Assembly (NCBI RefSeq): GCF_001282785.1
Contig: NZ_CVUA01000001.1
Coordinates: 310,001-374,000 of the forward strand
Length of the DNA stretch: 64,000 bases
Direction: 5' to 3'
Origin: Halolamina sediminis
GTDB taxonomy: Archaea; Halobacteriota; Halobacteria; Halobacteriales; Haloferacaceae
Numbering within the stretch: position 1 is the first letter of the stretch; each line of letters begins with the position of its first letter. The notes beneath the pieces are model-generated. The model saw only the letters and a program-made list of their open reading frames with translations. It was not told where the DNA came from and ran no database searches. The position numbers and the translations under genes were made by a program. This document shows, piece after piece, positions 56,617-61,494 of this stretch.

Positions 56617-57420
56617 ATGCGTGCGTTCAGGCTGGCCTACGACGGGCGAGAGTTCTACGGCTTCCAGCGACAGCCCGACGTGCCGACCGTCGAGGGAACG
56701 CTGCTCGACACGCTCGAGGCGGGCGGGATCGTCGACGACGGCGAGACGCCGTCGGGGTACGCCGCCGCGGGGCGGACGGACGCGGGCGTCTCCGCGGTCG
56801 CCCAGACGGTCGCGTTCGAGGCGCCCGACTGGTGTACGCCCGCCGCGCTCAACGGCCGGCTCCCGGGCTCGATCCGGGCGTGGGCCGCCGCGGACGTGCC
56901 CGAGGAGTTCCACGCGACCCACGCCGCCAGCGAGCGGTGCTACACGTACCACCTCCACGCTCCCGACGCCGCCGACGAGATCGCGCGCGAGGCCGCGGAT
57001 CGACTTTCCGGCAACCACGACTTCCACAACCTCACCAGCGACGAGAGCGGGACCGTCCGGGACGCGTCGGTTCGCGTCGAACGCGACGGGGAGTTCCTCG
57101 TCGTCACGGTCTCCGCGGGGGGGTTCCCGCGCGGGTTCGTCAGGCGGCTGGTCGGCGTGCTCGCGGAGGTGGCCGTCGACGGGCAGTCGCTCGCGCGGGT
57201 GGCGGAGGTGCTGAGCGAGGAGTCGCTACAGGGCGGCCGCGGCGTCCCGCGGATGCCGCCCGAACCGCTGGTGTTGACGGGCGTGACCTACCCAGACGTT
57301 GATTTCTCGATCGACGAGGAAGCCGTCGAGAGTGCGCGCGGCGTGTTCGGCCAGCGGCGTACGAGCGCCCTAGAGCGTCTGCGCGTGACGGAGTCGGTGT
57401 TGCAGAGTATTCGGGAGTAG
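56617..57420 (+). CDS. truA: tRNA pseudouridine synthase TruA
   Basis: 267 residues. The catalytic Asp is Asp55 in AGRTDAGVSA, and FHATHAASERCYTYHL near 107 and GGFPRGFVRRLVGVL near 168 are family motifs. It converts uridines 38-40 in the anticodon arm of many tRNAs to pseudouridine. The last 51 nt of the gene overlap the end of the convergent exported-protein gene, an unusually long antisense overlap in which both frames are used. A long untranslated stretch precedes it. Confidence 0.94.
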   Translation: MRAFRLAYDGREFYGFQRQPDVPTVEGTLLDTLEAGGIVDDGETPSGYAAAGRTDAGVSAVAQTVAFEAPDWCTPAALNGRLPGSIRAWAAADVPEEFHATHAASERCYTYHLHAPDAADEIAREAADRLSGNHDFHNLTSDESGTVRDASVRVERDGEFLVVTVSAGGFPRGFVRRLVGVLAEVAVDGQSLARVAEVLSEESLQGGRGVPRMPPEPLVLTGVTYPDVDFSIDEEAVESARGVFGQRRTSALERLRVTESVLQSIRE

Positions 57421-58161
57421 CAGTCGGCGTTCCCCGGGCTTCGGGGTAGCCACCGCTTCCGTGTCCGTGCTGTTGTCGGCGGTCGCCGTGGGCTCGATTG
57501 TCGGCTCGTTCTCCCGGATGTGCTCCCAGTCCGTGATGTCGGTCACCGTCCCGTTGGCGAGGTCGACCGTGACGGAGTACTTCAGGTCGTCCGGCGCATC
57601 CGCGGTCGAGTTCCGGATTTTCACGACCGCCCGGTCGTCGACGTAGTTCGGTGTCCGGTCGACGGTTACCGATCCGTTCTCGCTGTCGGTGTCGTTCAGG
57701 TCGACAGTGAAAGTGCCGCCGTCCTCTGCGTCTACGGTGACGTTGTACTGCCCCGTCGCGATGGACGACGTGTTCAGCTTCCGAATCGGCTCGACGGTGA
57801 GTTCGACCGCCCCCACGTCGTCGACGGCCTCGCTGACCGTTCGGTTGTTCAGCGCGATCGTTCGCGCCCGGTCACGTTCGTCCCGCGACAGCGGGCGCCG
57901 TTCTCGGGTCTCCACCGTGAACCGACTGGCGTTCGTGCGGTCAATTCTGACCGCCGACACGTTCGAGAGGGTCGTCACGGTCGTCTCGGACTGATCCGAC
58001 TGCGCGACGGTCACGTTGCCGTCGCCGACGACGAACTCCGCGCCCGGTTCCGACGGGACGACGCCATTCGGGGCGAACGCGGTTCCGATTCCCGCCAACA
58101 CGACCCCGACCAAGGCGAGGCCGACGACGAGCAGGAGGCGTACTGGTATCTCGGAGGGCAC
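57370..58161 (-). CDS. Exported membrane-anchored protein, PepSY-like
   Basis: 263 residues. An N-terminal membrane helix (about 9-30, VRLLLVVGLALVGVVLAGIG) is followed by an extracytoplasmic, Asp/Asn/Thr-rich beta-strand region. The segment RARTIALNNRTVSEAVDDVGAVELTVEP near 100 and the later SVTVDLANGTVTDITDWEHIRE near 205 resemble PepSY-type repeats. It is the mirror of the exported protein at 59054. Both flank a membrane HTH regulator, so a sensing role is possible. The C-terminus overlaps truA by 51 nt. Family unknown. Confidence 0.65.
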   Translation of the reverse strand: MPSEIPVRLLLVVGLALVGVVLAGIGTAFAPNGVVPSEPGAEFVVGDGNVTVAQSDQSETTVTTLSNVSAVRIDRTNASRFTVETRERRPLSRDERDRARTIALNNRTVSEAVDDVGAVELTVEPIRKLNTSSIATGQYNVTVDAEDGGTFTVDLNDTDSENGSVTVDRTPNYVDDRAVVKIRNSTADAPDDLKYSVTVDLANGTVTDITDWEHIRENEPTIEPTATADNSTDTEAVATPKPGERRLLLPNTLQHRLRHAQTL

Positions 58162-58198
58162 GCATCGACGTTAGGTGAAAGCCCTCATCAACCCAAGG

Positions 58199-58236
58199 GT
58201 GAAACGCGTTTCAAACCCGTTTCGTAGGTGTTTCAC
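58199..58236. promoter_or_regulatory. Palindromic GAAAC/GTTTC operator region
   Basis: A perfect 14-bp palindrome TGAAACGCGTTTCA at 58200-58213, with further GTTTC-type sites at 58219 and 58230 (GTTTCAC, inverted relative to GTGAAAC at 58199-58205). It lies in the divergent promoter between the exported-protein gene and the HTH regulator gene. A GAAAC/GTTTC pair (58912 and 58941) recurs in the promoter region of the next exported-protein gene at 59054. Suggests common control, perhaps by the HTH protein. Confidence 0.55.
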
Positions 58237-58296
58237 GCCCGCTACGGCCCAGTTCGACCGGTACATCTAAACAGCCGGTATCCCGAACAATCCCGC

Positions 58297-58890
58297 ATGA
58301 GCCCTCCTGCCCTCCAGCGCGCTCATCTCGTGGCGGCGGTCGTGTTCGTCGCCGGCGTGCTCGTTCTCACTGTCCAACTGCTCACACCCTCACCGGTCGT
58401 CGTTTCGGTGGGGGAGAACGGTACCCAGGCGACCACCATCGGCCAGTACTTCACGTATACCGAGGCGGCGGTAGTCGCGGTCACGGCTGCGGCCTGTGGC
58501 GGCAGCGGGACGTTCCTGCTCCTCTACGGGCGAGGGCGAACCAGCGAAGAACAGGCACAGCGGCCCGCGAACTTGAGCGGGAGACGGATGCGCACGGCGG
58601 GGGACGGTGGTGTCGCTACCGGAGGTGGACGCCCGGAGACAGCCGGCGGCAGCGACGGATCGGAGGCCGTCGGGGAGCGCTGGCAGGCGACGCTCGACCG
58701 TCTCGCGAACAACGAGGAGACGATCTACGAACTGCTGGTGGACGCCGACGGGGAGCTCCCCCAGCGAACGCTGGTCGAGGAGACGGACCTCTCGAAGGCG
58801 ACGGTGAGCCGAACACTGGATACTCTCGAACAGAGAGGGCTGGTCGAACGCCGGCGCGACGGCATGGGGAACACCGTCCTCCTCACCTAG
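58297..58890 (+). CDS. Membrane-tethered HTH transcription regulator
   Basis: 197 residues. Two membrane helices (about 9-31 and 52-76) are followed by a linker rich in Gly and Arg and a C-terminal winged-HTH (about 128-197), with ETIYELLVDADGELPQRTLVEETDLSKATVSRTLDTLEQRGLVERRRDG. The extracytoplasmic loop of about 20 residues is short, so signals may come from neighbouring exported proteins. The HTH resembles MarR/TrmB or DUF7343-type domains common in haloarchaea. Start chosen for an ACATCTAAAC box about 26-35 nt upstream. Candidate regulator of the palindromic sites beside it. Confidence 0.82.
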   Translation: MSPPALQRAHLVAAVVFVAGVLVLTVQLLTPSPVVVSVGENGTQATTIGQYFTYTEAAVVAVTAAACGGSGTFLLLYGRGRTSEEQAQRPANLSGRRMRTAGDGGVATGGGRPETAGGSDGSEAVGERWQATLDRLANNEETIYELLVDADGELPQRTLVEETDLSKATVSRTLDTLEQRGLVERRRDGMGNTVLLT

Positions 58891-59053
58891 AGGTTGGCGG
58901 GGAATAGGCCAGAAACGGACGTGGAAAGCGTTACGAACCGGTTTCGGCGCCGTTACCAATCAACGACTATCTGCTCTTTCAGTCAACGGGTTACTGCGGC
59001 AAGTCGGGGCGCCGGTCCCCGCCGAGGGATGAGCCCCCTTCGCCGCGCAAACC

Positions 59054-59635
59054 ATGCGACACGAGACACTGACACTCGCGGTTGCGGCGCTGCTCGCCAT
59101 CGTGGCGGGCGGTGCCGTCGCCGCGCCGACACCGGCGGCGGCCACGTCGCCGGCGGCCGACGTACAGCCCTCCAACCACACCGTTGAAGTCGTCGACCCC
59201 GACGACAGACTGGCCGAGCAGGAGATAGCCGAGTTGCGACGCCTCGCGTGGGGGAACGACGAGGTGCGACAGCAGTTCGAGGACGCCGACGGCGTGCACT
59301 TCCACGTTGAAGCCGTCGGTGAGAGCCTCGAAGTGTACGTCGCGAGCGACGAGAACGCGCCGCCGCGGGTCGTCGCCGAAATCTCGCTCGACGGCGCCGA
59401 AGTGACCGACGTTCGAACGCTAAACAACGCGGTGACAGCCGATTCGGCGGCCACAGTCGAACTCACTCCGCTGGACGAGTCGGCAGTCGAGAACGGGTCG
59501 ACGGTTACCGTCCGAACTGCGTCCGGGGCGACGACACTGAGCGTCGAGAACGGGACCGCCGTCGAGGCGGTCGCCGTGACCAGCGTCGACGACGGGAACG
59601 GGTCGGCAACGTTCCGCACCGAGGCGGATAACTGA
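59054..59635 (+). CDS. Secreted protein with PepSY-like domain
   Basis: 193 residues. A Sec-type signal peptide (about 1-24, MRHETLTLAVAALLAIVAGG) is followed by a Pro/Ala-rich linker and a beta-rich domain. The segment EQEIAELRRLAWGNDEVRQQFEDADGVHFHVEAV, then VVAEISLDGAEVTDVRTL, resembles the corresponding part of the exported protein at 57370 in order and spacing. There is no C-terminal anchor, so it is either secreted or held by other means. It follows the HTH gene on the same strand with its own promoter region. Function unknown. Confidence 0.68.
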   Translation: MRHETLTLAVAALLAIVAGGAVAAPTPAAATSPAADVQPSNHTVEVVDPDDRLAEQEIAELRRLAWGNDEVRQQFEDADGVHFHVEAVGESLEVYVASDENAPPRVVAEISLDGAEVTDVRTLNNAVTADSAATVELTPLDESAVENGSTVTVRTASGATTLSVENGTAVEAVAVTSVDDGNGSATFRTEADN

Positions 59636-59971: not shown

Positions 59972-61351
59972 TCACTCCCACCCTTCGGGCCACAACGACG
60001 CCGCCTTCATCCCCGTCTCGAACTCCAGCTCCCGGAACGCCTCGGCCAGCTCTTCCTGCTCCAGCCGATCGGCGTCCGTCGACGCCAGCTCGTCGACCAG
60101 CAGCGCGGTCAGGACGCCGTGCTCCCGGATGTTCCGGTCGTCGGCCTTGTCCCGGGTGTCGGCGTGGGTGTGGCCCCAGCCGCGCCCGCGTTCGCCGCTG
60201 TCGCTGTGCAGTTGAACCGACGGCACCCCCGCGCGGACGAACGGCCACTGATCGCTGAAGGGGTGGGGGTCGGACTCCACCTCGACCGGGTGGTTCGCGC
60301 GCTCGCTCACGCGCTCGACCGCTTCGCCGGTCGACTCCGAAGTGTGGGTCAGCGCGATCAGGTCGCGGAACCGCCCGCCGCCGTCGACGTTCACCACCGC
60401 CGCCACGTCGTCGTGATCGATCGTCTCCGCGAGGTGTTCCGCGCCGAGCAGCCCCACCTCCTCGCAGCCGACGGCGACGACGCGGACGCCGCGGTCCAGT
60501 TCGTTCTCGGCCTCGCTGAGCACGCGGGCGGCCGTGAGCACGGCCGCGACGCCGCAGCCGTTGTCCAGCGCCCCCTCCGCGATGTCGTGGCCGTCGTAGT
60601 GGGCCAGCAGGAGGATCTCCTCGTCGGTCTCGGGGCCGAGCCGCCCCTGGACGTTCTGACTCCGACCCGTCGTCGTCTCAGCGTCGACGGTGAGCCGGAC
60701 GCGGGTGTCGCCCTCGGCGTTCCCGCTTTTCGCGGAGCGAAAACGGGAGTTCGAGGTGTCGCTGTTTGATACCTCGGCGAACTCGGTGAGCCACGCGCCG
60801 GTCTCCTTGCTCACGCCGACCGCCGGCGCCTCCGCCTCGCGCCCGAACGTGAGCGAGCCCGTGGGCGGGAGCTGGCCGGGAACGTGGTTGACGAACACGA
60901 ACGCCGCGGCGCCCTGCCCGATCGCGTAGCCGAACTTCTCCATCCGGTGGATGAACCGGCCGCCCTCCGGCGTCGTGGTCGAGGCGACGACGATCTTCCC
61001 CGCCACGTCGAGCTCGTCGATCTCCTCGGGCGTGCCGTAGCCCGCGTCGACCAGTTCGCCCTCCACTTCGCCCGCCGGGGAGTACGGAAGCGCGATCGTC
61101 TCGAACTCCCGCTCGACCGGCGATCGGACGCGGAGCGAGGAGTCCCCTCGCTGCCAGGCCTGCATCTCGAAGGGGTCCTGTTCGACGTTCCGAACGCCCG
61201 CGTCGCGGAACGCGTCGGCGACGATCTCCGCGGCCCGTGCCTCGCCCTCGCTCCCGCCCATCCGGCTCCCGATCGCGGTGAGGTCGGTGAGGAACTCGCC
61301 CGGCCGGTCGTCGGTCCACGTCCGCCCGATCGCGGCGTCGAATCCGTCCAT
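59972..61351 (-). CDS. M28-family metallopeptidase
   Basis: 459 residues from the ATG at 61351. The zinc ligands and catalytic residues are visible: HYDGHD near 250 (His and Asp), DNGCGVAAVL near 262, GCEEVGLLGAEH near 295 (Glu pair), NVDGGG near 323 (Asp) and GWGHTHADTRDKAD near 395 (His). The middle portion (about 95-230) is a protease-associated domain insert. There is no signal peptide, so it is cytoplasmic. It is an aminopeptidase/carboxypeptidase-like enzyme. Together with PepF it suggests peptide turnover downstream of the proteasome. Confidence 0.88.
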   Translation of the reverse strand: MDGFDAAIGRTWTDDRPGEFLTDLTAIGSRMGGSEGEARAAEIVADAFRDAGVRNVEQDPFEMQAWQRGDSSLRVRSPVEREFETIALPYSPAGEVEGELVDAGYGTPEEIDELDVAGKIVVASTTTPEGGRFIHRMEKFGYAIGQGAAAFVFVNHVPGQLPPTGSLTFGREAEAPAVGVSKETGAWLTEFAEVSNSDTSNSRFRSAKSGNAEGDTRVRLTVDAETTTGRSQNVQGRLGPETDEEILLLAHYDGHDIAEGALDNGCGVAAVLTAARVLSEAENELDRGVRVVAVGCEEVGLLGAEHLAETIDHDDVAAVVNVDGGGRFRDLIALTHTSESTGEAVERVSERANHPVEVESDPHPFSDQWPFVRAGVPSVQLHSDSGERGRGWGHTHADTRDKADDRNIREHGVLTALLVDELASTDADRLEQEELAEAFRELEFETGMKAASLWPEGWE

Positions 61352-61494
61352 GCTCCGGCGTGTGGGAGGGCGACCCAAAGGCGTTCCGGGCCGGCAACGA
61401 CGCCCCGACGAAAAAGGCAAAACCGACCGACAAACGCCACCTCCCCGCGTGAAGTGAGAAGACTTACCACCGGATCCGACAGTACGTCACCACG

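Follow-up and report, generated by a model that had tools for sequence, protein, structure and literature searches.

The three neighbouring haloarchaeal genes described here, encoding an exported or membrane-anchored protein (P1), a membrane-tethered winged-helix protein (P2), and a secreted relative of P1 (P3), very probably form a small, previously undescribed, outward-looking signalling device. The reading we favour, with a probability of roughly one half, is a closed, self-regulating one-component circuit in which P1 would act on P2 from outside the cell, and P2 would set the levels of P1, P3, and itself.

Gene layout and membrane topology

The window, the whole stretch of 64,000 nucleotides that was analysed, is part of a haloarchaeal genome of 2.84 Mb in one contig. 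The preliminary description placed three genes in this stretch, and all three are found at the positions and on the strands it gave (Table 1), with the topologies it assigned: one hydrophobic segment in P1, two in P2 together with a C-terminal winged helix, and one in P3, the homologues concurring. The N-terminal segment of P1 spans residues 7–25 (one segment likewise in 65/66 P1 homologues), the segments of P2 span residues 11–29 and 58–76 (two segments also in 62/65 homologues), and the N-terminal, signal-like segment of P3 spans residues 6–24 (the same in 57/57 homologues). P2 most likely starts at the ATG at 58297 rather than at the upstream GTG at 58228. The 3′ ends of P1 and truA, which lie on opposite strands, overlap by 51 bp (57370–57420).

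Table 1. Genes and putative regulatory features of the P1–P2–P3 locus, numbered within the window.
Feature	Position	Strand	Description
truA	56617–57420	+	flanks the trio on one side
P1	57370–58161	-	263 aa; exported or membrane-anchored; N-terminal hydrophobic segment and extracytoplasmic domain
P1 promoter box	58171–58204	-	TTTC-N16-GGGCTTTCACCTAA; consensus of 31 loci; about 20–25 nt before the P1 start
Putative operator	58200–58213		TGAAACGCGTTTCA; perfect 14-bp palindrome between P1 and P2
TATA-like stretch	58260–58274	+	ggtacatctaaacag; upstream of P2; weak A/T-rich consensus at this place in 36 loci
P2	58297–58890	+	two-TM protein; C-terminal DUF7343/MarR-like winged helix
P3 promoter box	58953–58986	+	TTAC-N16-GCTCTTTCAGTCAA; consensus of 31 + 21 loci
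Hairpin	58989–59053	+	G+C-rich; putative P3 mRNA leader
P3	59054–59635	+	193 aa; signal-peptide protein; one copy of the P1-type domain and a variable tail
M28-family peptidase gene	59972–61420	-	flanks the trio on the other side

P2 as a membrane-tethered winged-helix protein

P2 passes the Pfam gathering score for PF24034 (DUF7343) with 53.1 bits against 27.6, and also exceeds the cut-offs for MarR_2 and MarR; these matches, together with the two hydrophobic segments, point to the membrane-tethered winged-helix regulator proposed earlier. A DNA-binding domain and at least one TM segment are combined in one protein, which is the architecture of a transmembrane transcription regulator. In an alignment of 52 homologues the TM region, the wHTH, and the outer loop are conserved, the loop, short at about 25 aa, highly so. 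Across P2 homologues the loop carries a mean of 0.97 Arg and Lys residues, compared with 2.45 and 1.55 on its two flanking sides, and this lower positive charge agrees with a winged helix located inside the cell.

A domain common to P1 and P3

Comparison of a P1 profile (63 sequences) with a P3 profile (35 sequences) by hhalign gives a probability of 95.4 and an E-value of 1.8e-8 over a two-helix, four-strand region that includes the VDL..G.V motif, with exactly the segments SVTVDLANGTVTDI of P1 and VAEISLDGAEVTDV of P3 aligned to each other. The motif that the preliminary description saw in both exported proteins is thus present in each and lies within one shared domain, as it had suggested. 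AlphaFold2 models, with pLDDT values above 90 in the core of P1 and of ~95 for residues 40–120 of P3, predict an identical order of secondary structure elements in the two cores (E-HH-EEEE), which in P1 corresponds to an extracytoplasmic beta-alpha-alpha-beta4 layout.

The same description called this domain PepSY-like, a label that Pfam, hhalign, and PDB comparisons do not support as a family assignment. PF03413 is found in 0/98 homologues (63 P1 and 35 P3) among the matches listed and nowhere in this genome, comparison by hhalign with eight archaeal PepSY domains falls short of significance (P ~0.05), and the PDB yields no sequence match and no fold match at E <0.001, with no PepSY structure among the Foldseek results. 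P1 and P3 resemble PepSY proteins (PF03413, YpeB) in their export, in the predicted pattern of a helix followed by four strands, and in a VDL..G.V-like ending; unlike these, however, they place two helices before the sheet, P1 has a long insertion between strands, and nothing above threshold links them to PepSY by sequence or structure. A SecF-like match of P1 (E 0.003, 17 bits against a cut-off of 420) was rejected as noise, and a Pfam search returned no toxin-like domain or other match for P1, P3, or their homologues.

P3 is the most variable part of the trio in loci of architecture A, with a mean identity of 0.33 compared with 0.51 for P2. Several loci depart from the usual P3. In L107–L109 exported proteins without the usual domain occupy the P3 slot, the one in L109 having an end that resembles a pre-peptidase C-terminal domain, and in L086, L094, and L055 the folded domain is replaced by short YDERLTADESF-type or similar repeats. 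In L072 (4775–5113 and 2812–3231) P3 is truncated, with its remainder ~1.5 kb away and an IS200-like transposase ORF between the two, so that P3 seems dispensable there.

Conservation and spread of the trio

A search with the P1 profile finds the locus in 76 of 392 genomes of the haloarchaeal order. Among 67 loci that were read, 66 carry P1, and P2 accompanies it in 64 of these, in one case with P3 sitting between them; an exported protein fills the P3 slot in 63/66 P1 loci (57 by the P3 profile and six others, mostly preceded by a similar upstream box), whilst one haloarchaeal locus (L090) lacks P3. Gene order is shuffled, with P1< P2> P3> in 35 loci, P3< P1> P2> in 21, and one further order, and the surroundings vary, no other gene family being common to more than 5 of the 67 loci. 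All of 20 haloarchaeal genomes in which an independent search found full-length P2 also have P1, and the pairwise distances of P1, P2, and P3 correlate (Mantel r 0.67–0.97, permuted maximum 0.34). A lack of neighbourhood conservation across species had been named beforehand as an argument against a signalling unit; the trio is instead kept across many families. That three unrelated genes are neighbours by chance, for which nothing speaks but their absence from close relatives, is practically excluded by the 64/66 P1–P2 loci, the shuffled order, the co-divergence, and the shared DNA boxes described below.

The distribution is patchy. Single-protein searches of a first sample found the locus absent from 6 genomes of the same genus and 29 others of the same family, and present in other families. 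The P2 tree requires 24 changes of family label where the minimum possible is 8, and copies of the trio lie on plasmids of several genera, which together indicate that the trio moves between lineages. A phage origin is unsupported, with 0 P1 matches in 50,697 phage records. In Haloferax mediterranei the trio lies on pHME505, where independent gene calls exist for all three genes (E6P09_RS15890, RS15895, RS15900), RS15895 being annotated as a ‘MarR family transcriptional regulator’, and the palindrome and both boxes are likewise present. In Natrinema-type loci two further genes adjoin P2, one for a PspA-like coiled-coil protein and one small and HTH-like (L044 2807–3646; L045 9004–9840); PspA was rejected as a component of the trio, as it is confined to 5 Natrinema-like loci of one synteny group.

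Outside the haloarchaea, searching with the P2 profile reveals full-length P2 relatives in further families of the phylum. In 7/20 such loci, including some from other classes, the gene immediately upstream of P2 is related to P1 (P1 profile E-values of 2e-11 to 2e-5 in six and 0.03 in one). Methanosarcinaceae-like genomes have exported partners other than P1 beside their P2 homologues, and P1 is therefore not obligatory for the whole P2 family. From the upstream P1 genes and these other partners we infer that P1–P2 is the older core, with P3 probably a haloarchaeal addition or the fast-changing part of the trio. In genomes of the group f19 (L183–L185, L188–L191, L197) the P2 homologue runs into the start of a one-TM exported protein of another kind, and a second, larger exported protein of repeat-rich appearance comes next; this arrangement is a related but distinct system. 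A P2 homologue of 31% identity without a recognisable P1 (L147 1765–2262) lies on a contig labelled as a Nitrososphaerales MAG; either the family is more widely distributed or the contig was misbinned.

Regulatory DNA

The palindrome TGAAACGCGTTTCA is surrounded by additional GAAAC/GTTTC half sites, and its exact sequence occurs once in the 2.84-Mb genome, with one other site at 1 mismatch. Its 10-bp core is present in 28/42 P1/P2 and 20/21 P3/P1 divergent regions, and the layout of palindrome and half sites recurs in most loci of both architectures. The boxes before P1 and P3 have a common structure of two half sites around a 16-base core, ending in CTTTCAnnnAA. A scan of the whole genome for TTnC-N16-GnnCTTTCAnnnAA gives exactly two zero-mismatch matches, located in front of P1 and P3 respectively; as the pattern was derived from these loci the two matches arise by construction, and the informative result is that there is no third, for which the simplest reading is one regulator serving P1 and P3 and little else. 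The palindrome and boxes being unique to the locus in this genome, the trio is probably autoregulated and closed, which adds support to the compact signalling unit that the preliminary description envisaged. No candidate regulator besides P2 is conserved at the locus, and P2 would on that ground be the protein that binds the palindrome and boxes, although the predicted operator could be read by a regulator other than P2. That half sites flank the core on either side suggests that P1 and P3 are repressed.

In most architecture-A loci about 70–110 nt separate the box from the P3 start, and this leader tends to contain a long G+C-rich hairpin whose sequence varies by locus. Stems exceed those of all shuffled sequences in the P3 leader of 16/36 loci, compared with 7 upstream of P2 and 5 upstream of P1, a result that is no more than suggestive. 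Rfam gives no match for the P3 leader. Some P3 leaders have a GAGGTGA Shine-Dalgarno-like stretch after the hairpin.

Proposed mechanism and alternatives

In the proposed circuit P2 would be anchored in the membrane, its winged helix facing the cytoplasm and its short loop exposed outside the cell. Its binding sites would be the GAAAC/GTTTC palindromes of the P1–P2 intergenic region, together with the half sites flanking the P1 and P3 core promoters. By occupying these, P2 would control its own expression and that of P1 and P3, with repression of P1 and P3 the more likely mode. As the constant partner, P1 would stay attached to the outer side of the membrane and act on P2 through the loop, as a sensor or co-regulator. 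P3, a fast-evolving secreted relative of P1, would be the output and would probably feed back too. The binding by P2, the sign of regulation, the P1–P2 contact, and the role of P3 are all parts that we infer.

A less likely alternative is direct sensing of the membrane or the exterior by P2 itself, by way of its helices and loop, with P1 and P3 mere regulated outputs, for example envelope-protecting proteins, that do not act back. The highly conserved loop and TM region of P2 would suit such sensing, as would the boxes that mark P1 and P3 as targets, and many transmembrane transcription regulators have no sensory domain and may react to the bilayer itself, according to a survey (PMC10269533). 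The PspA-like gene next door would also fit, but is limited to one synteny group of 5 loci; moreover, P1 is still found with P2 in classes from which P3 is missing or has been lost, as expected of a partner rather than a mere output.

We consider it unlikely that the locus is a secreted conflict cassette, in which P3 would be a halocin-like, fast-evolving effector, P1 a counterpart or immunity protein that stays with the cell, and P2 the dedicated regulator of both. The patchy distribution, the transfer between families seen in the P2 tree, the variability of P3 in architecture A and its occasional exchange for another exported protein, and the closed nature of the unit are all compatible with such a cassette. 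However, no toxin-like domain is seen, homology between P1 and P3 would be unusual for an effector–immunity pair, and P1–P2 persists where P3 is absent (L090) or truncated (L072), and without a recognisable P3 outside the haloarchaea. It is rather improbable that P3, alone or together with P1, serves as a secreted protein signal, released by cells and read back via P1–P2; if true, this would be an archaeal cell–cell or self-sensing circuit with a regulon that in this genome is essentially itself.

That P1 and P3 are true PepSY proteins restraining extracellular proteases, in amounts adjusted by P2, appears very unlikely. The PepSY-like layout and ending speak for it, archaeal double-PepSY proteins have been predicted to be protease inhibitors (PMC6393860), and the Pfam search places M28 and PepF peptidase genes downstream of the trio within the window, but no peptidase gene is conserved beside the trio in the 67-locus neighbour survey, and the negative Pfam, hhalign, and fold comparisons given above apply here also.

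The self-regulating circuit remains our preferred reading. How archaea perceive what lies outside their envelope is poorly known, and this trio is small, widespread, and transferable. With the predicted operator occurring once in this genome and the two matched boxes only at this locus, the regulator, its targets, and its sites can be named beforehand. Haloferax mediterranei is genetically tractable, and its carriage of the trio makes the hypothesis directly testable.

Comparison with known systems

Membrane-tethered regulators are common, with 1,384 archaeal members in a survey of transmembrane transcription regulators that, like P2, combine a DNA-binding domain with a TM region; the triad, its exported partners, and the operator are not described in the accessible part of that survey (PMC10269533). 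No mention of DUF7343 and no description of the P1–P2–P3 triad were found in the open-access library searched. The regulatory DNA of the trio, the palindrome and the paired promoter boxes, is an addition of the present analysis. ArnR and ArnR1 of Sulfolobus acidocaldarius are one-component regulators bound to the membrane by two TM helices, and they require paired inverted repeats at their promoter (PMC6396743). P2 resembles them in being archaeal and membrane-bound, in its two TM helices, and in the inverted repeats at its locus. In contrast to P2, they have an N-terminal HTH, C-terminal TM helices, and an internal HAMP/sensor region, and unlike the trio they have no exported partner pair and target archaellum and pilus genes.

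The bacterial membrane-tethered regulators of ToxR–ToxS and TcpP–TcpH each have a dedicated membrane-anchored outer partner, and proteins of the ToxR type carry an OmpR-like winged helix at the N terminus and, in most cases, a single TM helix. The trio similarly encodes a membrane DNA-binding protein beside an exported or anchored partner that, by analogy, would act from outside, P1 and P2 being adjacent in 64 of 66 haloarchaeal and in 7 non-haloarchaeal loci. Unlike ToxR, P2 has no OmpR-like N-terminal winged helix; its winged helix is C-terminal and of the MarR/DUF7343 type, and two TM helices lie at the N terminus. P2 appears to control mainly its own partners, and the domain of P1 is unrelated. 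On the best reading, the trio would work like ToxR–ToxS, though with unrelated domains.
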